In this document: piece after piece, positions 5,515 to 51,998 of the stretch | Numbering within the stretch: position 1 is the first letter of the stretch | Layout of the letters: every line of letters begins with the position of its first letter | Source of the DNA: Chlorobaculum tepidum TLS | Lineage (GTDB): Bacteria; Bacteroidota; Chlorobiia; Chlorobiales; Chlorobiaceae | NCBI RefSeq assembly: GCF_000006985.1 | Contig: NC_002932.3 | Location: 782,890-846,889, forward strand | Direction of reading: 5' to 3' | DNA length: 64,000 bases | The notes under the pieces: generated by a model | Database searches by the model: none | The model's input: only the letters and a program-made list of their open reading frames with translations | Told to the model about the DNA's origin: nothing | Program-made: the position numbers and the translations under genes

Positions 5515-7404
5515 ATGAGCAGCAACCCTACCTCATCCGTTCGTGAGTTTGAATACAAGGCTGAAATGAAACAGCTTCTGAATCTGATCGTCCATTCGCT
5601 GTACACCCATCCTGAAATTTTTCTTCGTGAGCTGATCTCCAACGCCTCCGATGCGCTCGGCAAGGCGCGTTTTCGGATGCTTTCGTCTGACGAGGGGCTT
5701 GACAAGTCCGGCGATCTGAAGATCACCATCACCGTCGATAAAGAGTCTGGCAGCTTTGTCATCGAAGACACCGGCATCGGCATGAGCGAGGAGGAGTTGA
5801 TCTCGAACCTCGGTACGGTGGCCAGCTCCGGCACGCTCGGCTTCATGGAGGCGCTGAAGGAGCAGCAGAAAGAGGGACAGCGGCTCGACGCCAACCTCAT
5901 CGGCCAGTTCGGCGTAGGCTTCTACTCAGTCTTCATGGTGACCGATGAAGTGACCGTCGAGACCAAAAGCATCGAGAGCGGCTTGCAGGGGTGGCGGTGG
6001 AAATCATCCGGCCAGGGTTCCTACACCATTGAGCCGGTCGAACGCGAAGCTCGCGGCACCCGCATTTCATTCATCCTCAAGGAGGAGTTCAGGGAGTTCG
6101 CCCAAGAGTACCGCGTCGAGCAGATTATCAAGAAGTACTCAAACTTCGTTGAATATCCGATCTACATCGGCAGCCGCCAGATCAACAGCATGACCGCGCT
6201 CTGGCAGCGTCCCAAGAGCGAGCTGAAACAGGAAGAGGTCAACGAGTTCTACAAGTTCATCGCCAACGATTTCAAGGACCCGCTCGACTACCTGCACGTG
6301 TCGGTCGAGGGCGCGGTGAGCTTCAAGGCGCTGCTTTTCATTCCTTCCGAAGCGCCGATGGAGCTGCTCTACAACCAGGGGGCGCTCGAAAAACGCGGGC
6401 CGCAGCTCTACGTCAAGAAGGTGCTCATCCAGCACGAGTGCCGCGATCTTCTGCCCGAATATCTGCGCTTCGTGAGCGGCGTGGTCGATACCGAGGATTT
6501 GCCGCTGAACGTTTCGCGCGAGCTGGTGCAGGCAAGCCCGGTGATGGCGAAAATCAAGCAGATTCTCACCACCAAGCTGCTCGGCTGGTTCGACACCATC
6601 GCCAAAGAGGAGCCGGAGAAGTTCCGCGCCTTCTACAAGGCGTTCGGCACGATCCTGAAAATCGGCCTCAACACCGACTTCACCAATCGCGACAAGCTGA
6701 TCGATCTCTTGCGCTTCGAGACCACCAAGACCGTCGAGGGCGAGTACGTCACCCTCAAAGAGTACGTCGGGCGCATGGCCGAGGGGCAGACCGAAATCTA
6801 CTACCACTCCGGCAGCAGCCGCGCACAGATGCTCGCGCATCCAAACCTCGAATATTTCAGGAAGCGCGACATCGAGGTGCTTCTGCTCTCCGATCCGGTC
6901 GATGTGTTTGTGATTCCCTCGATTTTCGAGTACGACAAGAAGCCGCTCAAGTCGATTGAGAAGGCTGAAATTGACATGAGCACGGTCGAGCCCGAAGGTG
7001 AGCGGCTCAGTGCTGAGGGCACGGTTGGCGTGATTTCGCTCTTCAAGGAAGTGCTCGGCGAGCGCGTGGCCGACGTGGTCGAGTCCAGGCGCCTCGTCAG
7101 TTCGCCGGTGACGCTGGTGAGCGGCAAAGATGCGCTCGACAGCCAGTTCGAGAAGATGATGAAGATGATGAACAAGGATGCCGACATGCCTTCCACGAAG
7201 AAGATTCTCGAGATCAACACCGCGCATCCGATCATCCGCAACCTGGCGGGCAAGCACGCCGTCGGCCTCTCCACCGATCCGGTCGTTCGTGCGGCGGTCA
7301 CGCAGCTTTTCGAGAGCGCCCTGTTGCTCGAAGGCGACCTCGAATCGGTCGCGGACTACGTTTCGCGCATGAACGAACTGGTCGAGGCCGCGACGCGCTC
7401 GTAA
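5515..7404 (+). CDS. htpG: Molecular chaperone HtpG (Hsp90 family)
   Basis: About 629 residues from ATG 5515, the usual HtpG length; an earlier in-frame start at 5347 would add an unrelated N-terminus. The protein is a cytosolic ATP-dependent dimeric chaperone. The GHKL ATP-binding motifs are in order: [10 protein letters not shown] (about 35), [11 protein letters not shown] (about 85), [11 protein letters not shown] (about 125), and the conserved SSGT element. The middle domain has [10 protein letters not shown] and the conserved NVSRE, and the C-terminal dimerisation domain is present. It appears to be a single transcription unit. An AAACGGCC/GGCCGTTT inverted repeat (7441-7483) lies downstream. 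Confidence 0.97.
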
Positions 7405-7440
7405 CTCGCGGATCGAACAGCACTGCTGTTCGGCGTTATC

Positions 7441-7483
7441 AAACGGCCTGTCGGGATGCGTGGTTGCTCCGGGCGGGCCGTTT
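7441..7483 (+). terminator. Weak hairpin after htpG
   Basis: Inverted repeat AAACGGCC (7441-7448) / GGCCGTTT (7476-7483) with a long loop and no T-run; a weak terminator candidate. Confidence 0.3.
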
Positions 7484-7513
7484 GACCGGTAACCCATTAA
7501 CCACTTTTCACTT

Positions 7514-8389
7514 GTGAGCCAACTGTCTGAAACCGAACTTCGGCATGTCGCCGGATTTCAGAAAAACGAGATCACCGAGCACCACATCTACAAGAATCTC
7601 GCCAAAAAGGTTGACGGCGTGAAGAACCGCCGCGTTTTTGCCCAGATTTCCGAAGACGAACTTCGTCATTACCATGTCTGGAAAAAATATACTGGGAGGG
7701 AGGTGGAGCCGGATCGCTTTAAAATCTGGCTCTACTCGATGATCGCCCTCTTGTTTGGTTTTACCTTTGCCGTCAAGCTGATGGAGGGGAAAGAGCAGAA
7801 CGCGCAGCAGGAGTACGAGCGGGTGGCGAACATGGGCGTCGAAATCGATGGCCTCATCAAGGACGAGGAGGAGCACGAGCAGGCGCTGATCGCCGTGCTC
7901 GATGAGGAGCGGCTGCAATATACCGGTTCGATCGTACTTGGCCTGAACGACGCCTTGGTCGAACTGACGGGTGCTCTGGCAGGCCTGACCTTCGCCTTGC
8001 AGAATACCCGGCTCGTAGCGCTGACAGCAGTGATCACCGGTTTTGCCGCCGCCCTGTCGATGGCCTCGTCGGAATATCTCTCAACCAAAACCGAGGCGGG
8101 TGTGAAAAGCCCTGTCAAGGCCTCGATCTACACGGGCGTCGCCTATATCATCGCCGTCGCGGTGCTGATCGTCCCGTATCTCGTTCTGAACGACATTTAC
8201 CTGAGCCTCGCGCTCGCGTTTGCCGGTGCGTTTGTGGTGATCGCCCTGTTCAATTTTTATGTCTCCGTGGCGCAGGGCGTGCCGTTCAGGAGCCGTTTTC
8301 TCGAAATGGCCGGGCTGATTGTCGCGGTCTCCGGCATCAGCTTTTTGGCGGGACTTGGCATCCGGTACTTCTTCGGCGTCGAGGTGTAG
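7514..8389 (+). CDS. Membrane-bound ferritin-like / VIT1-CCC1 family iron transporter
   Basis: 291 residues with a GTG start at 7514 and no strong ribosome-binding site. The N-terminal ~135 residues are rubrerythrin/ferritin-like, with metal-ligand patterns such as EITEHH, EDELRHYH and EEEHEQ. The C-terminal half is a VIT1/CCC1 domain with about five membrane segments, including the conserved GLNDALVELTGALAGLTFA and MASSEYLSTKTE stretches. Proteins of this architecture (MbfA type) move Fe2+/Mn2+ out of the cytosol or into storage. A role in iron or peroxide homeostasis is expected for an organism full of Fe-S enzymes. The gene converges on the next minus-strand gene with only 6 bases between stop codons. 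Confidence 0.85.
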   Translation: MSQLSETELRHVAGFQKNEITEHHIYKNLAKKVDGVKNRRVFAQISEDELRHYHVWKKYTGREVEPDRFKIWLYSMIALLFGFTFAVKLMEGKEQNAQQEYERVANMGVEIDGLIKDEEEHEQALIAVLDEERLQYTGSIVLGLNDALVELTGALAGLTFALQNTRLVALTAVITGFAAALSMASSEYLSTKTEAGVKSPVKASIYTGVAYIIAVAVLIVPYLVLNDIYLSLALAFAGAFVVIALFNFYVSVAQGVPFRSRFLEMAGLIVAVSGISFLAGLGIRYFFGVEV

Positions 8390-8395
8390 CTTTTG

Positions 8396-9943
8396 TCACA
8401 TTTTCAGCGCCGTCAGCAGCGCTTCGATGGTAACTTCGCCCTCTGTGTCGATCTGGATGCAGAGGGCTTTTTCGTCTCCGGCGGGCGACTCAATGGCGTG
8501 AAGCTGGGCTTCGAGAACCTTCTGGTCAGCTTCGGAGGCGTCGCTTCCTTTTTTGTGTCGCGTTCGTACCCGCTCGCGCAGCGTCTCGTGCGTGGCTTGG
8601 AAGCAGAGAATGCGGCACTCGCAGTTCATCGCTCTTGCCAGGCGGATGAAAGGGGCTCTCTTGCGGGCATCGGGGAAGGTGGCATCGACGATCACCGGAA
8701 AGCCTGCTGACAGCGCGGTCGAGGCGGCGTCGAGCATGACGTCGTAGGTTTTCTGCGTCGCTTCAGGCGTGTAGATGTCGAACCCTTTTCCGGCGCTGCG
8801 TTCGAGGCTGTCGATGCCGAAGAGGCGCTTGCGCTCGACGTCCGAGCGGATGTGGATGAAGCCGCCCAAGTCGGCGAGTCGCGCTGCCCAGGTCGATTTG
8901 CCGCTGCCCGAGACGCCGTAGGTGATGAGCAGCATCGGTTTTCGGGGCTGCGTGTAGCCGAGCGCGAGCCGAATGTAGGAGTGGTGCTCGGCGAGCGTTT
9001 TGGCTTTTTCCTCCTCGTCCGACTCCTGCGCAACGCGGATCGAGGTGACCTTGGCCCGCACCATCGCCCGGTACACGCAATACAAACGCAGCACCTGCAA
9101 GCCGTTGTAATCGCCGTTTTTCGAGAGCCAGGCGTTCAGAAAATGCCACGCCAGTTCGGGGTGGCCGGAGTGTTCCAGGTCCATGAAGAGGAACGCGACG
9201 TCGCTCATGACGTCGATGATGCTCAGCACGTGGCTGAACTCGATGCAGTCGAAAATCGTGATCTTGCCGTCGCGTATTACCATGTTGCCGGTGTGCAGGT
9301 CGCCGTGGCACTCGCGCACCATGCCGAGCGCCTTGCGCTCCCGCATGACGCCGCCGAGCCGCCGGTGTTCGGTGAGCGTCCAGTGGCGGATTTTTTCGAT
9401 GTCGCTCCGCTCTTCGATGGTGCGGGCGACCTCTTCGGTCAGGTCGAGATTTTCGAGCATCGGCTTGAGGATCACCTCCGGCGTGCCGAACTTCGCCGAG
9501 GGATCGGCTCGCGGAGCCTCGGCATGGAAGGCGGCGATCACCTCGGCGGCCTCGCCGATCTCGCGCTTTGTCAGCTCGCCCCGGCGCAGCAGCCGGTCGA
9601 GCTCGAACCTCCGGTCGAACTGCACCATGCGGATCACGTAGTCAATCGCCTCGCCATCGCCGCCGATCCGGATTTTTCCATCCGACTCTGTTACCGGCAG
9701 CACGTCGAGATAGAGGTCAGGGCAGAGCCGCCGGTTCAGGCGCAACTCCTCTTCACAGAAATGCTTGCGCCGTTCGAGCGTCGAGAAGTCAAGGAAGCCG
9801 AGATTGACCGGCTTCTTGAGTTTGTAGGCGAACTGGCCGGTGAGGAAGATCCATGATATATGGGTCTCGACCACCTCGATCACCTTTTCGACCGGATGAT
9901 GATACGCTTCCGGGCGGCGAAGGGCTTCGGCTGGCTGGATCAT
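8396..9943 (-). CDS. Two-domain protein: APH-like kinase plus P-loop ATPase
   Basis: 515 residues. The N-terminal two-thirds resemble aminoglycoside-phosphotransferase-like kinases (COG2187 type), with the Brenner-type motif HGDLHTGNMV (about residue 215) and a following IFDCIEF with the Mg2+-binding Asp. The C-terminal third is a P-loop nucleotide kinase (COG0645 type) with Walker A GVSGSGKST near residue 345. This fused architecture is known in bacteria but its substrate is not established. It is transcribed away from fumarase and converges on the iron transporter. I see no resistance context, so a metabolic or regulatory small-molecule kinase is more likely than drug resistance. Confidence 0.8.
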   Translation of the reverse strand: MIQPAEALRRPEAYHHPVEKVIEVVETHISWIFLTGQFAYKLKKPVNLGFLDFSTLERRKHFCEEELRLNRRLCPDLYLDVLPVTESDGKIRIGGDGEAIDYVIRMVQFDRRFELDRLLRRGELTKREIGEAAEVIAAFHAEAPRADPSAKFGTPEVILKPMLENLDLTEEVARTIEERSDIEKIRHWTLTEHRRLGGVMRERKALGMVRECHGDLHTGNMVIRDGKITIFDCIEFSHVLSIIDVMSDVAFLFMDLEHSGHPELAWHFLNAWLSKNGDYNGLQVLRLYCVYRAMVRAKVTSIRVAQESDEEEKAKTLAEHHSYIRLALGYTQPRKPMLLITYGVSGSGKSTWAARLADLGGFIHIRSDVERKRLFGIDSLERSAGKGFDIYTPEATQKTYDVMLDAASTALSAGFPVIVDATFPDARKRAPFIRLARAMNCECRILCFQATHETLRERVRTRHKKGSDASEADQKVLEAQLHAIESPAGDEKALCIQIDTEGEVTIEALLTALKM

Positions 9944-46671: not shown

Positions 46672-47249
46672 TCAGATGTATTCCGTGACGGTGCCGGCTC
46701 CCTGATACTCGAGCATAGCTTCGAGTTTGTTCCATGCCGCACCGGACTCAAGGGCCTCCCGCGCCATCTCCGCGCCTTCGCGATAGCTCGTGGCCCTGTC
46801 CGCGATATAGAGCGCCGCGGCGGCGTTCATGCAGAAGAATTCCGCTGCCGCGCCGCCGCGCTTGCCTTGCAAGACTTCCGTGATCACGGCGGCGTTCTCT
46901 CCGGCGCTCTTCATGCTGGCGATTGCTTCGAACGGCACGGTTTTCAGACCGAAATCCTTCGGCCTCACCTCGTAGTTCGAGATGGCTCCGTCGCGCAGTT
47001 CGACCACCTTTGTCGGGCCGCAAAGCGAGAACTCGTCCATGCCGAGCGACGGGTCGAACCCTTCCGCCAGCCCGACTTCAGGAACGCCTCGCCGGGCAGG
47101 TAGCAGATACCCGTGTTCTGAAGGCTCAGCGCAGCGCGTTCGAGCGGATGGTCGAGGTCGATGCCGAGCGACTCGAAGATATCCGATGCGCCCGAAGCGA
47201 TGGCCGAAATCAGTTTGCCGAAAGCGCGAAGTTCGTGTTCGTTTGACAT
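46672..47249 (-). pseudogene. Decayed anthranilate phosphoribosyltransferase (trpD) gene
   Basis: Two overlapping minus-strand frames together give a shortened TrpD. Frame 46965-47249 supplies an N-terminal start, then SGASDIFESLGIDLDHP and LQNTGICYLPGEAF. Frame 46672-47040 supplies GMDEFSLCGPTKVVELRDG and the end FFCMNAAAALYIADRA. The central part of TrpD (including the GTGGDG phosphate-binding site and much of the middle domain) is missing. A frame change lies near 47050-47090. At about 190 codons it is little more than half of a normal ~345-residue TrpD and cannot be active. An intact trpD is expected elsewhere in the genome. Confidence 0.8.
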
Positions 47250-47280
47250 TGGGTTGGTGGGTTGGTTAGAAAGAAAGAAT

Positions 47281-47314
47281 AGGACGTATAGGTCTCATAG
47301 AACTTATACGTCCT
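47281..47314. repeat. Inverted repeat between two pseudogenes
   Basis: Perfect 10-bp repeat AGGACGTATA (47281-47290) / TATACGTCCT (47305-47314). No T-run follows; it may be a dispersed repeat or a remnant of a terminator. Confidence 0.6.
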
Positions 47315-48105
47315 GTAGGATGAAGAGGCTTAACGTGTTACTGAACTCGCTGACTTGACGGAAGCCTGTTCCGGCGAGTACTGTTGCCATGACCGAAGGC
47401 GCTTCTTTGAGGCTTATCGTGCGTTCGAGGAGGAAGCCGAGGTCTTCTCCGCCGCTTGGCCCCCATGCCGTTTTTTCCGGCGCATGGCACTGCTCCCAGT
47501 GTTCGCCAAGATTCATCAGGTTGATTTCCAGTATTCCAATGTTGCCATCTGATGCTGAAAGAATCATTGCCGGGCCAGCATCACCCAGCGTCAAACCGCC
47601 CATTTTCACATCAAGCTCATCAAGTGAATTGATCTGGCGGTTGGCGACATAACTGCCGATTTCGCCGCTGCAGCTTAGCACATTCTTCACTGCGCCGGTG
47701 ATAATTATGCTGTTGGCCACGTTCATCGCCTGCAGAAAGCTGTTGCAGGCGTTGGTGACATCGAACGAATTGAGCATATCCAACCCAAGTTTCTGCTGGA
47801 CAATGTTGGCCGTCGCCGGTTCGAGAGCATGTCCATATCGGTGCTCGAAAAAATCAGCGTGTCGATGTCTGCCAGCGTGAGGTCACAGCGATCCAGTGCT
47901 TTAAGGGCTGTGGCAACGGCGAGGTCGGAGGGGAAGGTGCCCGGCTAGGAATAGGCGCGCGTTTTGCACTTGGTTGTCCGGTATTCGGTAGATCAGGGTC
48001 GGAAGCATCTTTTTGATCTCAGGCGGAGCGTCGATCATATCGGCCAGTGTTTTGTTATCGACCCGGTTCTCAGGGATTTCCGAAGCTATCGAAACAATTC
48101 TGAAG
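47304..48105 (-). pseudogene. Decayed beta-ketoacyl-ACP synthase III-type gene
   Basis: The minus strand carries pieces of a KAS III (FabH-like) protein in different frames. The N-terminal FRIVSIASEIPENRVDNK runs from about 48104. Then TRAYS, an in-frame stop at 47945-47947, PGTFPSDLAVATALKALDRC and FSSTDMDML follow. A frame change then leads to EPATANIVQQKLGLDM and the active-site region SFDVTNACNSF. The change is explained by a duplicated TC near 47827. The end (after about 47480) does not look like a KAS III C-terminus. At least two frame changes, one stop and no evident start codon mark it as a pseudogene. Confidence 0.75.
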
Positions 48106-48532
48106 GCCGGTTTTTGATAACGCTGTATGTTCTTGAAAATAGGTGTGAGACTGCAAGGCGGGTGACTGCATTACGACGAGGGACTAATGAGGTGTTGCCG
48201 AAAAAAACATCATCGAAAATATCGATTTTTTTCCCGGAAAACGATCAAATCATAGCAGGGTTTACGTTGAAAAGTTTATTCAACGGCTCTTTTTGAGGTG
48301 CGCAGTAATTGTGTCCTGAAATTCTGATAACTCATCGAAACTATAGCGTCTTAACTTGTCGTTTGGTTGGAAAAGGGGGAAAGTTACTATTACGTTACGT
48401 TAGAGTGCCAAAGCTTAAAATTTCCTAAGCTCTGTAATCACTAAGTATATTGCATAGCATGGGTGTTCTTTTTTTACTGCATGAAAGGTTTCTGATAATT
48501 TTTGTAAAAAACTAATCGGGAGGATTGTTAGT
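48106..48532. other. AT-rich region upstream of the SQR-like gene
   Basis: About 425 bases without a supported gene; a plus-strand frame at 47964-48296 is a shadow of the pseudogene. It contains a short repeat ACGTTACGTTA near 48390. A good Shine-Dalgarno GGGAGG (48518-48523) precedes ATG 48533. Confidence 0.45.
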
Positions 48533-49810
48533 ATGAAAACAAAACCGCATGTCTTGATTCTTGGCGGCAACTTTGCCGGATTGCAGGTTGCCCGCCACAT
48601 CCGCGATCATGTGAAGCCCGAAGACGCCTCGGTCACCGTGGTCGATAAACGGTCGTACCTGCTCTTTATTCCCAACATCCTGATGGAAATCCTCGAAAAC
48701 AAAAATCCGGACAGCAGCATGCAGCTCCCGCTGGCTCCGGTGCTTGACAAGGACGAAACCCGCTTCATCCAGGCCGAGGTGCTCGACATCGACGTCGAGA
48801 GCAAAAAAGTGACCATCCAGCCGACCGAACGGCCTGGCACGACAACCGATGTGCTTACCTACGACTACCTGGTCATCGCCCTTGGCAACCGGCTCGCGTT
48901 TGACAAGATCGACGGCTTCGCCGAGCATGGCCACACCGTATCGGACGGTTTTTACGGCAACAAGCTCCGCCACTACCTGCACGAGGGCGGCTACAAGGGA
49001 GGCCCGATCGCGATCGGCTCGGCTCGATTCCATCAGGGAACGAAAGGCAAGCTCGACTTTGTGCCGATGGCCAAAGCCGCTTGCGAGGGACCGCCGGTCG
49101 AAATAGCGCTGTCGCTTGCTTCGTGGATGAAGCATCATGAAATGGGCGGGCCGGAGAAGGTGACGATCTTCACCCCCGCCGATCTGATCGCCGAAGACGC
49201 GGGCAAGAACATTGTGAAGCAATTGCTTGAAATCGCGGGCGGCATGGGGTTCGGTTACAAGAACAAGCTCGAAGACATCAAGCAGATCGGCAAGGATGGC
49301 ATCGAGTTCGCCAACGGCGAGTCCATCGAGGCCGAGCTGAAGATCATCCTCCCGGACTGGGTGCCGCACGAATTTCTGAAAGGGCTGCCGATCTGTGATG
49401 AAAAGGGGTTCGTCATTACCAACAAGCAGCTAAAAAATCCAGATTATCCCGAGGTCTACGCCGCCGGTGACGCCGCGGCCTGCACGGTGCCGAAGCTCGG
49501 CTCCATCGGGCACCACCAGTCCTACATCGTCGCGCGGCAACTGGCCCGCGATCTCGGCGCGCTCTCGGACGAGGAGGCCGACAGCGAACTGTATAGCCCG
49601 GAGGTGATCTGTTACGGCGACATGGGTGACGGCAAGGCCTTTTACATCCACTCGAACGTCTGGTATGGCGGCGACATCGAAATTCTGAAGATGGGTAAGC
49701 TCTACTACGACCTGAAGGTTGCCTTCAAAACCTCCTACTTCGCCATGGGCGGTAAGGTGCCGTACTGGCAGTGGAAGATGGGCTCCTGGATGGGCGACAA
49801 GATTTTGTGA
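48533..49810 (+). CDS. Sulfide:quinone reductase-like flavoprotein
   Basis: 425 residues with GGGAGG upstream. FAD-binding LILGGNFAGLQVARHIRDH at the N-terminus, YLVIALGNR near 112, and the second FAD motif YAAGDAAACTVPKLGSIGHH near 309. Cys 184 in AACEGPP and Cys 360 in VICYGDMGDG match the two core redox cysteines of the SQR family; the third N-terminal active cysteine is absent. A C-terminal aromatic tail (YWQWKMGSWMG) fits monotopic membrane attachment. It oxidises sulfide or a related compound to reduce menaquinone. Green sulfur bacteria carry several SQR types; this looks like one of the divergent types. It is intact although flanked by pseudogenes. Confidence 0.8.
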   Translation: MKTKPHVLILGGNFAGLQVARHIRDHVKPEDASVTVVDKRSYLLFIPNILMEILENKNPDSSMQLPLAPVLDKDETRFIQAEVLDIDVESKKVTIQPTERPGTTTDVLTYDYLVIALGNRLAFDKIDGFAEHGHTVSDGFYGNKLRHYLHEGGYKGGPIAIGSARFHQGTKGKLDFVPMAKAACEGPPVEIALSLASWMKHHEMGGPEKVTIFTPADLIAEDAGKNIVKQLLEIAGGMGFGYKNKLEDIKQIGKDGIEFANGESIEAELKIILPDWVPHEFLKGLPICDEKGFVITNKQLKNPDYPEVYAAGDAAACTVPKLGSIGHHQSYIVARQLARDLGALSDEEADSELYSPEVICYGDMGDGKAFYIHSNVWYGGDIEILKMGKLYYDLKVAFKTSYFAMGGKVPYWQWKMGSWMGDKIL

Positions 49811-49835
49811 TCGCGCGTCCGCATCCGGCGACTTT

Positions 49836-50209
49836 TCAAAGCGCGCGTCCGCAGCCAGCATCGGTTTGCGGAAGCGCACTAAAAAACCTGCCCAGAACGA
49901 TCAGCGTCAAAAGCACCGGCAGGTAGGCAAGGGTCGCTCTGAAAACCCGGCGGTATCCCTGTCGGAGCGCGAGAAAAACAGCTGCACGCTGACCATGAGC
50001 GGAATGATTCCGAAAAGTAACGAACCGATGCCGAAGCGTAAACCTGACAAGCCGAAAAGGTATGGAAGAAAAGAGGCGAGCACAAGGAGTAGCGTAGAAG
50101 CGAGAATGTGTTTGAATATCCTGTTCCCCCTTGAATCGATTGCCGAGAGTATTTTGAATCCACCGGCGCGGTAATCGTTACGATACATCCAGGCGACGGC
50201 GTAAAAATG
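49836..50209 (-). pseudogene. C-terminal fragment of heme O synthase (ctaB/cyoE) gene
   Basis: Reading the minus strand from about 50209, DPHFYAVAWMYRNDYRAGG is the diagnostic segment of protoheme IX farnesyltransferase. KILSAIDSRGN and membrane segments with SFLPYLFGLSG follow. Near 49960-49980 the frame changes and continues as ALRQGYRRVFRATLAYLP to a stop at 49836-49838. Only the last ~120 residues exist; the 5' end is cut exactly where the IS256-like terminal repeat starts (about 50210). Truncation by the insertion plus a frameshift make it non-functional. Confidence 0.75.
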
Positions 50210-50775
50210 GGGGTCTGTAAGATACCGTGTCTAAACGGTCATAGTGTCCTCTCATGTAACAAGGAGCAAAACTATGACCAGAAAGAAAGAAGACCCCGGA
50301 CATTCAGGGCGAGCTGGACGAGCAGCTCGGCTATCCAAAGCATCTCTACCCATCGTGCCCAACACCAGCAACAGCCGCAACGGACACGGCAGCAAAACCA
50401 TTATCGTTGATAACGATCAGTTCACCATCCGCTCTCCGCGCGACCGCAACGGCAGCTTCGAGCCGCAACTGATCCCCAAACGCCAGACGCGCTTCAAGGG
50501 ATTCGATGAAAAAATCCTGGCCATGGACGCCCGCGGCATGAGCGTCCGCGACATGCAGGCCATGTTACTGGAACTCTACCAGGTCGAAGTCTCCGAAGCG
50601 CTCATCAGCAGCGTGACCGACGCGATCAAGCTGATCTATCTTGCCATGCAGAATATTGCCAAAAAATGGACGATGCCGCTACGCAACCGGGGTGCGGTCA
50701 TCAATCAGTTTTCCATTACATTCGAGGGAAGGGTACCCCTGGTGCCCCCTATGAAAACGACCGTTGACACACTTG
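50210..50775 (+). mobile_element. Degenerate IS256-family insertion sequence
   Basis: A left end resembling IS256-family terminal repeats (GGGTCTGTAAGATACCGTGT from 50211) is followed by a transposase remnant. The right end near 50745-50775 carries a partly matching reverse copy (ACCGTTGACACAC). At about 570 bases it is less than half of a full IS (about 1.3 kb), because the middle is deleted. It interrupts the ctaB fragment. Confidence 0.65.
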
Positions 50776-50780
50776 GCTGA
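50274..50780 (+). pseudogene. IS256-family transposase remnant with internal deletion
   Basis: From ATG 50274 the frame reads the family N-terminal region [14 protein letters not shown], then [20 protein letters not shown] and [12 protein letters not shown]. It then jumps directly to the C-terminal region [19 protein letters not shown]. The whole catalytic DDE core (about 230 residues) is missing. A further frame change near 50290-50350 splits the start ([15 protein letters not shown] is in another frame). It cannot encode an active transposase. Confidence 0.8.
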
Positions 50781-51081
50781 ACAGGCTCTCGGCGGATTTT
50801 CGTAGAGCGCTTTCAGGCTGGCTTCGTCGCGACGGAAGCCGGGCTGGTTCTTGAGCGTTTTCTCCTTCCTGACATTGATGAGGGAAAAAATCACCGAATC
50901 CTTCGACATGCCGCTGGCCGATGTATCGAAACCGTCGGATGGATTGCCCAGTTGCGCAATGTCCGTATTTTTTTTTCTATGTAACGTTATAGGTTTTTGA
51001 GGGGCTTTGTTTGTGTGTTTTATGTATATGGTCAGGTTTTTGAAAAAATATTTCAGCGAAATACCACGGGGGGCATTTGCC
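50781..51081. other. Region between the IS remnant and trmH
   Basis: About 300 bases. On the minus strand an open frame (50679-51173) includes a stretch with codon use like a real gene (around 50790-50960, for example SDGFDTSASGMSKDSVIF), possibly another gene fragment, but I do not recognise it. The rest is AT-rich. Confidence 0.3.
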
Positions 51082-51771
51082 TCACTCCGTGAATGCGCCG
51101 TTTTCGTTGAGTTTCGGGTATGGTTTACCTTGATCGCGGAGCACGGCGGCAAGGCGTGGATAGGTGTACTCAAAGAGCAGACGCTCGATGTCGGAGTCGC
51201 TGAAGTGGCGTGTGTCGTACAATCCGGCGGCCTGCCGCTGGCGTTGTGCTTCGAAAAGAATGAGCGCGGCGGCGACCGAGACGTTCAGCGACTCGACCAT
51301 GCCCATCATCGGGATGTAGATGAAGTTGTCGGCGAGGCCGAGCGCCTCCTGCGATGGCCCTTTCAGCTCTTCGCCCATGACGATGGCTGTTGGGCGGGTG
51401 TAGTCTATAGAGCGGAAATTGACCGCCTCCGGGCAGTAGTGGGCTACGAGAATCTGCATTCCCGACTGCCGGAGCTTCTCGCCGACCGGTACAAACGATT
51501 CGTTGAGGTGTACCTTGAGCCAGCGGCTTGCGCCCGCTGCTGTGTGCTGCTTGGTCTTGATCGAGGAGCGGTAGGAGATAGCGTGCACCTGGTGAATGCC
51601 GACTGCGTCGCAGCTTCGGATGATGGCGGCCAGGTTGTGCGGCTTGTTGACGTTGTCCATGACCAGTGTCAGGTCGGTTTGCCGCTTCTCGAGCAGCTCA
51701 CGGATTTTCCGGAATCGTTCAGGTGAGACCAATGCAATGAGGTTTGTTTGACGAAGCCGTGCTTGAGGCAT
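51082..51771 (-). CDS. trmH: SpoU/TrmH-family tRNA 2'-O-ribose methyltransferase
   Basis: 229 residues from ATG 51771 (the open frame extends further but the family N-terminus is here). SPOUT motifs: LTLVMDNVNKPHNLAAIIRS (motif 1), AIVMGEELKGPS (motif 2) and IPMMGMVESLNVSVAAALIL (motif 3), which form the trefoil knot that binds SAM. The C-terminal extension is basic and aromatic as in TrmH, which methylates G18 of tRNA; full length agrees with TrmH. It is divergent from the metallophosphoesterase gene. Confidence 0.9.
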   Translation of the reverse strand: MPQARLRQTNLIALVSPERFRKIRELLEKRQTDLTLVMDNVNKPHNLAAIIRSCDAVGIHQVHAISYRSSIKTKQHTAAGASRWLKVHLNESFVPVGEKLRQSGMQILVAHYCPEAVNFRSIDYTRPTAIVMGEELKGPSQEALGLADNFIYIPMMGMVESLNVSVAAALILFEAQRQRQAAGLYDTRHFSDSDIERLLFEYTYPRLAAVLRDQGKPYPKLNENGAFTE

Positions 51772-51998
51772 TCTGAAAAGAAAGTCATTTTTCGTTAAAT
51801 CTTCAACCAGGCATCCATGAATGGCAGATCCTTTGCAAAACGAGGTAAATGCAATTCTTAAAAGTATATTCGGTTTTTGGAGAAGAGGTTGTGGGTTGTC
51901 ACGTGCGGATCGAGAACCTTTCAGTGGCCTGCTCTGTTGTATCGGCAGGCGGCACTCATCCGTCTGAAAAATGTGTCTGTAACCATGAGTTTTCATCA

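Follow-up and report, generated by a model that had tools for sequence, protein, structure and literature searches.

A heme O synthase stump at an IS256 scar in Chlorobaculum tepidum, probably left by a transferred and later deleted cytochrome bo3 operon

Chlorobaculum tepidum TLS (genome G000) carries a dead stump of the heme O synthase gene cyoE (ctaB), a pseudogene that ends at the remnant of an IS256-family element. Comparison with two genomes of the same family, G010 (which we take to be C. parvum NCIB 8327) and G008, makes it probable that this stump comes from a transferred cytochrome bo3 operon that was later lost by a deletion ending at the IS256 element. The window analyzed here is a stretch of 64,000 nucleotides, and the features on which the argument turns are as follows (positions within the window).

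46672..47444, minus strand: second paralogue of trpD, carrying two deletions in its interior and fused to a dehydrogenase gene's 3' end; G008 and G010 have it intact
47449..48171, minus strand: KAS III-type gene, 3' truncated and frameshifted by small insertions (start taken from the alignment); intact in G010
47449..50212, no strand: tract 95% identical to G010 in surroundings otherwise nearer to G008
48533..49810, plus strand: SQR-like flavoprotein gene, intact, 425 amino acids; nearest solved structure 3h8i; adjoins the cyo operon in G008 and G010
49879..50212, minus strand: cyoE/ctaB heme O synthase pseudogene, 3' part (about 336 of 858 bp, codons ~175-285), truncated and frameshifted
50211..50788, plus strand: IS256-family remnant, internally deleted relative to three ~1.3-kb copies in G000
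50790..50967, minus strand: stump of a Pvc16_N-type gene (by alignment and profile), right edge of a contractile-injection-like cluster that G008 and G010 retain
51082..51774, minus strand: trmH-type tRNA methyltransferase gene, native right flank (276 bits, cut-off 227; start codon approximate)

A preliminary description of this DNA had placed the last part of a CtaB-type gene on the minus strand, and profile and protein comparisons agree. The interval given there, 49836-50775, does contain the fragment, but the gene itself covers only about 49879-50212 and the remainder is IS remnant. The open reading frame at 49907-50188 matches the heme o synthase profile TIGR01473 at 33.5 bits (positions 181-257 of 281); the only NCBIfam models that match it are those for heme o synthase, and the general UbiA family matches weakly, at 22 bits, below family cut-offs. 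When TIGR01473 was searched against the whole genome, the cyoE fragment scored 47.3 bits (profile positions 173-258) and the runner-up 40.9 bits. The nearest relative of the fragment is an intact heme o synthase and no other UbiA enzyme: it is 91% identical to the CyoE of G010 over residues 174-263 (E 3e-50). The intact CyoE proteins of G010 and G008 reach 272 and 277 bits against the TIGR01473 cut-off of 210.3.

The fragment is not a functional heme o synthase, for which we required full length and at least 210.3 bits; it represents the last 39% of cyoE and scores 33.5 bits as an open reading frame and 47.3 bits in the genome search. Prenyltransferases of the heme o synthase type carry an Asp-rich motif in their N-terminal part, and the codons before ~175 are absent from the fragment and found nowhere else in G000. 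Alignment of the three genomes shows that a one-base deletion breaks the frame before its end, with a second length difference near the stop. The fragment differs from G010 by 4 nonsynonymous and 4 synonymous changes over 70 codons, too few for a firm statement on selection. In a whole-genome search with G010 CyoE as the query, the window fragment is the sole match in G000 at E 1e-15, so the 5' part of cyoE exists nowhere else at that sensitivity. The segment G000:C1:1208040-1208321 first looked like a second ctaB piece and gave no match to CyoE at E 1e-15; by eye it looks like a C-terminal UbiA fragment of another kind, with an apparent frameshift upstream.

An intact counterpart exists in G010, where the gene order runs trpD paralogue, dehydrogenase, KAS III, SQR-like gene, cyoE (minus strand), cyoA, cyoB, cyoC, a CyoD-like frame (called by eye only), others, an injection-like cluster that includes gp25, gp19, baseplate J, and Pvc16_N, and trmH. 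The check proposed in the preliminary description, a search for intact ctaB at this place in related bacteria, thus finds one beside the SQR-like neighbor, divergent from cyoABCD. The G010 proteins exceed the TIGR cut-offs for cytochrome o ubiquinol oxidase (CyoB, 1037 bits against 1020; CyoA, 317 against 266; CyoC, 242 against 224), as does CyoA of G008 (312 against 266); CyoB and CyoC of G008 were judged by their 81% identity to G010, not by profile. The CyoA proteins of both genomes lack the CuA C...C...H pattern and have one cysteine each, which rules out a CuA-type cytochrome c oxidase. The operon of G010 and G008 is predicted to encode a cytochrome bo3-type quinol oxidase, an enzyme that would pump protons as it passes electrons from quinol to oxygen. 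Cytochrome bo3 uses heme O directly and does not require heme A, which fits the missing ctaA (found in none of the three genomes G000, G008, and G010); the quinones of green sulfur bacteria are of the menaquinone type. In G008, the SQR-like gene and the cyo operon lie elsewhere, at ~786.7-793.7 kb, and the place equivalent to this locus holds the injection cluster. Separately, a cbb3-type ccoN of G008 (L064, ~5857-8491) is split by an insertion of ~1263 bases that encodes a transposase-like protein bearing rve domains, and is open in G010; it is a second oxygen reductase in the genus hit by an insertion sequence.

In G000, a search for heme-copper oxidase (COX1) gave no match, compared with three (pieces) in G008 and two in G010; with no 5' cyoE, no ctaA, and no COX1, the genome-wide check suggested earlier leaves the stump on its own. 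Gene order is the same in G000 and G010 on both sides, minus G010 ~958619-991569 (32,949 bases); on the left side, G000 also lacks G010 953374-955864. Because a Pvc16_N-type stump lies to the right of the IS, about 33 kb is missing relative to G010, namely the oxidase operon and the contractile-injection-like cluster. The cluster (Pvc16_N, gp25, gp19, baseplate J, and sheath) occupies G008:C1:1119647-1146296 and G010:C1 ~966000-991800 and is gone from G000; correspondingly, the phage-sheath family is absent from G000 and found in G008 and G010.

The gap coincides with the IS remnant. As the preliminary description had noted, cyoE breaks at the left end of the IS (about 50210): its homology with G010 DNA stops at 50212, and alignments of other G000 IS256 copies with the window start at 50203-50214 and stop at 50788-50789. 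The open reading frame at 50244-50780 matches an IS256 transposase over positions 14-106 of 338 with 82.4 bits, under the cut-off of 150, a shortfall expected of a remnant; assignment to IS256 follows from a transposase of the family together with multiple copies that share the same ends. G000 contains 28 IS256-family pieces, the one in the window included. Relative to the ~1.3-kb copies, this one is without ~92 and ~655 internal bases. Beside the three ~1.3-kb copies, G000 also has several internally deleted derivatives of ~0.4-0.5 kb with similar deletions (e.g., L164-L168); these short elements are perhaps a non-autonomous family.

Cut genes border the remnant on both sides, cyoE on the left and Pvc16_N on the right, so that the Pvc16_N stump, and not the rest of cyoE, lies beyond the IS. 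The stump (50790-50967) is 84% identical to G008 and, over a slightly shorter stretch, 73% identical to G010; the Pvc16_N profile scores the G010 gene at 102.9 bits and the window stump at 17.5 bits (E 0.0035), under the cut-off. Around the IS junction no tandem repeats were found, and no target duplication is shown at the remnant.

These observations are consistent with the following history. Recombination with the G010 lineage at a common chromosomal place would have given an ancestor of C. tepidum the cyo operon together with the KAS III and SQR-like genes. A later deletion ending at the IS256 element, presumably a single event with the element as its agent, would then have removed cyoABCD along with the 5' part of cyoE and the injection-like cluster (~33 kb in G010 coordinates), and the IS remnant itself would have decayed afterwards. 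No strain with the full operon at this place on a G000 background was found, so we infer, rather than observe, that the lineage once possessed the whole operon.

Because G010-like DNA stops at the IS, the transferred segment may have been incomplete. It might have brought KAS III, the SQR-like gene, and no more than part of cyoE, in which case that transfer never gave G000 a working oxidase. Such a partial acquisition agrees with the exact termination of the G010-like tract at the IS and with the DNA to the right of it, which is nearer to G008 (84%) than to G010 (73%). Yet the cyoE cut is the IS end and Pvc16_N is cut on the opposite side, so a deletion must have occurred there anyway, and gene order agrees with G010 on both sides; we regard partial acquisition as unlikely, though it is the strongest of the competing explanations.

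Acquisition of a whole operon followed by deletion, which we prefer, presupposes exchange with the G010 lineage. The flanks of G008 are long, colinear, and 85-93% identical to G000, and elsewhere in the window identity to G010 is 69-88%, the upper value coming from a 129-base piece. Within 47449-50212, in contrast, identity to G010 rises to 95%, and identity to G008, from 48520 on, is only 82%. The same pattern holds at synonymous sites, where the difference between G000 and G010 is 0.145 in the SQR-like gene versus 0.344-0.645 in seven other window genes. This comparison took open reading frames of at least 200 amino acids with a hit in the fetched stretches, which gave nine G010 rows: the SQR-like gene, the seven others, and one excluded frame that runs antisense to trmH (51007-51723; pS 0.144, pN 0.206). 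Judged by divergence, the surviving block most likely entered from the G010 lineage not long ago and was then truncated.

The synonymous distance of the SQR-like gene to the G008 copy is 0.304 for G000 and 0.276 for G010. G000 is therefore about as far from the G008 copy as G010 is, which makes a transfer from the G010 lineage to the window the simpler course if the G008 copy is native. As that copy occupies a different chromosomal position, it need not have been inherited vertically within its clade, and the direction of transfer depends on this point; the G000 and G010 lineages may also both have drawn on a third donor.

Old vertical inheritance, with the module present in the common ancestor of G000, G008, and G010 and lost from G000 by simple decay without exchange, might explain why these three alone among 86 family genomes have cyoE sequence. 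It predicts, however, a G000 block nearest to G008, against the 82% and 95% found, and the synonymous difference of the SQR-like gene to G010 is far below that of the other genes measured; we consider it very improbable. An origin of the fragment in another UbiA-family gene, such as bacteriochlorophyll synthase or MenA, or its survival as a short active protein, is scarcely credible: the fold is common to UbiA family members and the score lies under family cut-offs, but the NCBIfam matches, the genome-wide TIGR01473 search, and the identity to G010 CyoE rule out another UbiA gene, none fitting better than heme o synthase, and the N-terminal part is gone and the frame broken.

The preliminary description had offered lost oxygen respiration or a borrowed gene as alternatives, and on the evidence above each is largely right, the two together: the synonymous differences point to borrowing, while the same gene and neighbor in the intact G010 bo3 operon, set beside a G000 genome with no heme-copper oxidase and no ctaA, point to loss, with ownership of a whole working operon as the inferred step.

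The genes left of the stump have fared differently. Across its 425 codons the SQR-like gene has an uninterrupted frame, and the 12.5 nonsynonymous and 41.5 synonymous changes that separate it from G010 give a dN/dS of 0.08, which indicates that it stays intact under purifying selection while its neighbors, KAS III and cyoE, decay. Farther left, the ends of the two trpD deletions at 46672-47444 show overlaps of ~8 and ~5 bases; the main trpD of G000 is at G000:C1:1515952-1516941. In the intact module, electrons from sulfide or another donor would pass via the SQR-like flavoprotein to quinone, and then from quinol to oxygen. In G000, which keeps the SQR-like gene alone, its product would have to feed another quinol user.

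Our survey covered 98 genomes of the class, of which 86 belong to the same family and 12 to other families. Matches to G010 CyoE at E 1e-15 occur in 12 of the 98: three of the 86 family genomes (G000, with the fragment, G008, and G010) and nine of the 12 others, at 29-36% identity. The TIGR01473 cut-off was passed by two of 61 family genomes. The SQR-like gene, at E 1e-60, is found in 4 of 98 genomes (G000, G008, G010, and G001). In G001 it is 74% identical and there is no CyoE match, so the pairing is not strict and a joint function is not required. Outside Chlorobaculum, none of 80 loci, each reaching at most 8 kb per side, has an SQR-like gene beside cyo.

A CyoB tree of 82 rows from 83 loci (L170 has no CyoB), with rows picked by similarity and 80 of 154 confirmed, recovers the G008 and G010 proteins as sisters (support 99) nested within a Bacteroidales group, NaphS2 branching immediately outside it; the fork that holds the pair is open, so that the tree leaves its exact sister group unsettled. 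CyoB of the Bacteroidales group (Prolixibacter, Mangrovibacterium, and MAGs) is 66-76% identical to G010 and that of NaphS2 71%; the remaining loci, nearly all from Proteobacteria, fall outside at 55-64%. This nesting speaks against a recent donor of CyoB among Proteobacteria. Because the set was chosen by similarity, the tree shows a neighborhood and no donor.

More tentatively, and with somewhat less than even confidence, the SQR-like gene and the bo3 oxidase may travel together from one Chlorobaculum species to another, as a mobile module whose function is oxygen reduction or detoxification linked to sulfide. G000 would have carried it until the IS-bounded deletion of ~33 kb, after which the SQR-like gene, still under selection, would have remained as an orphan in a changed role.

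The locus is of an ordinary kind, a pseudogene at an IS scar; the comparison shows what a relative has there and suggests a source. If the proposed history is correct, a textbook strict anaerobe had an ancestor that possessed, for a short time at least, a heme-copper oxygen reductase taken up from a congener and then lost. It would also account for a lone SQR-like gene among pseudogenes, and G010 with the operon and G000 without it would form a natural pair for testing the role of a bo3 oxidase in green sulfur bacteria. SQR homologues of C. tepidum have also been the subject of papers in subscription journals. In the openly accessible literature searched, including PMC8066431, PMC11269200, PMC9666304, and PMC4053972, we found no account of the C. 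tepidum cyoE stump.

Among known systems, the fragment is best fitted by the CyoE/CtaB family (TIGR01473), from whose intact members it differs in being truncated, frameshifted, and under the cut-off. Among solved structures, 3h8i is the closest to the SQR-like protein (E 3e-45); it is presumably the SQR of Acidianus ambivalens, although its PDB name reads NADH oxidase. C184 aligns with a 3h8i cysteine and C360 stands opposite another. The match scores only 158 bits, and activity of the SQR-like protein on sulfide is putative. The A. ambivalens enzyme is termed a type V SqrE in the available text of PMC9666304. CyoABCDE (cytochrome o) has been reported in Chlorobaculum parvum and in Chlorobaculum MAG bin 6 (PMC8066431), in passages that mention neither a C. 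tepidum remnant nor an SQR-like neighbor. The bo3 operon in Chlorobaculum is thus already known, and to it the present comparison adds the stump, the proposed exchange, and the scar of the deletion: G010 carries the same operon as published, whereas C. tepidum keeps the 3' end of cyoE alone.
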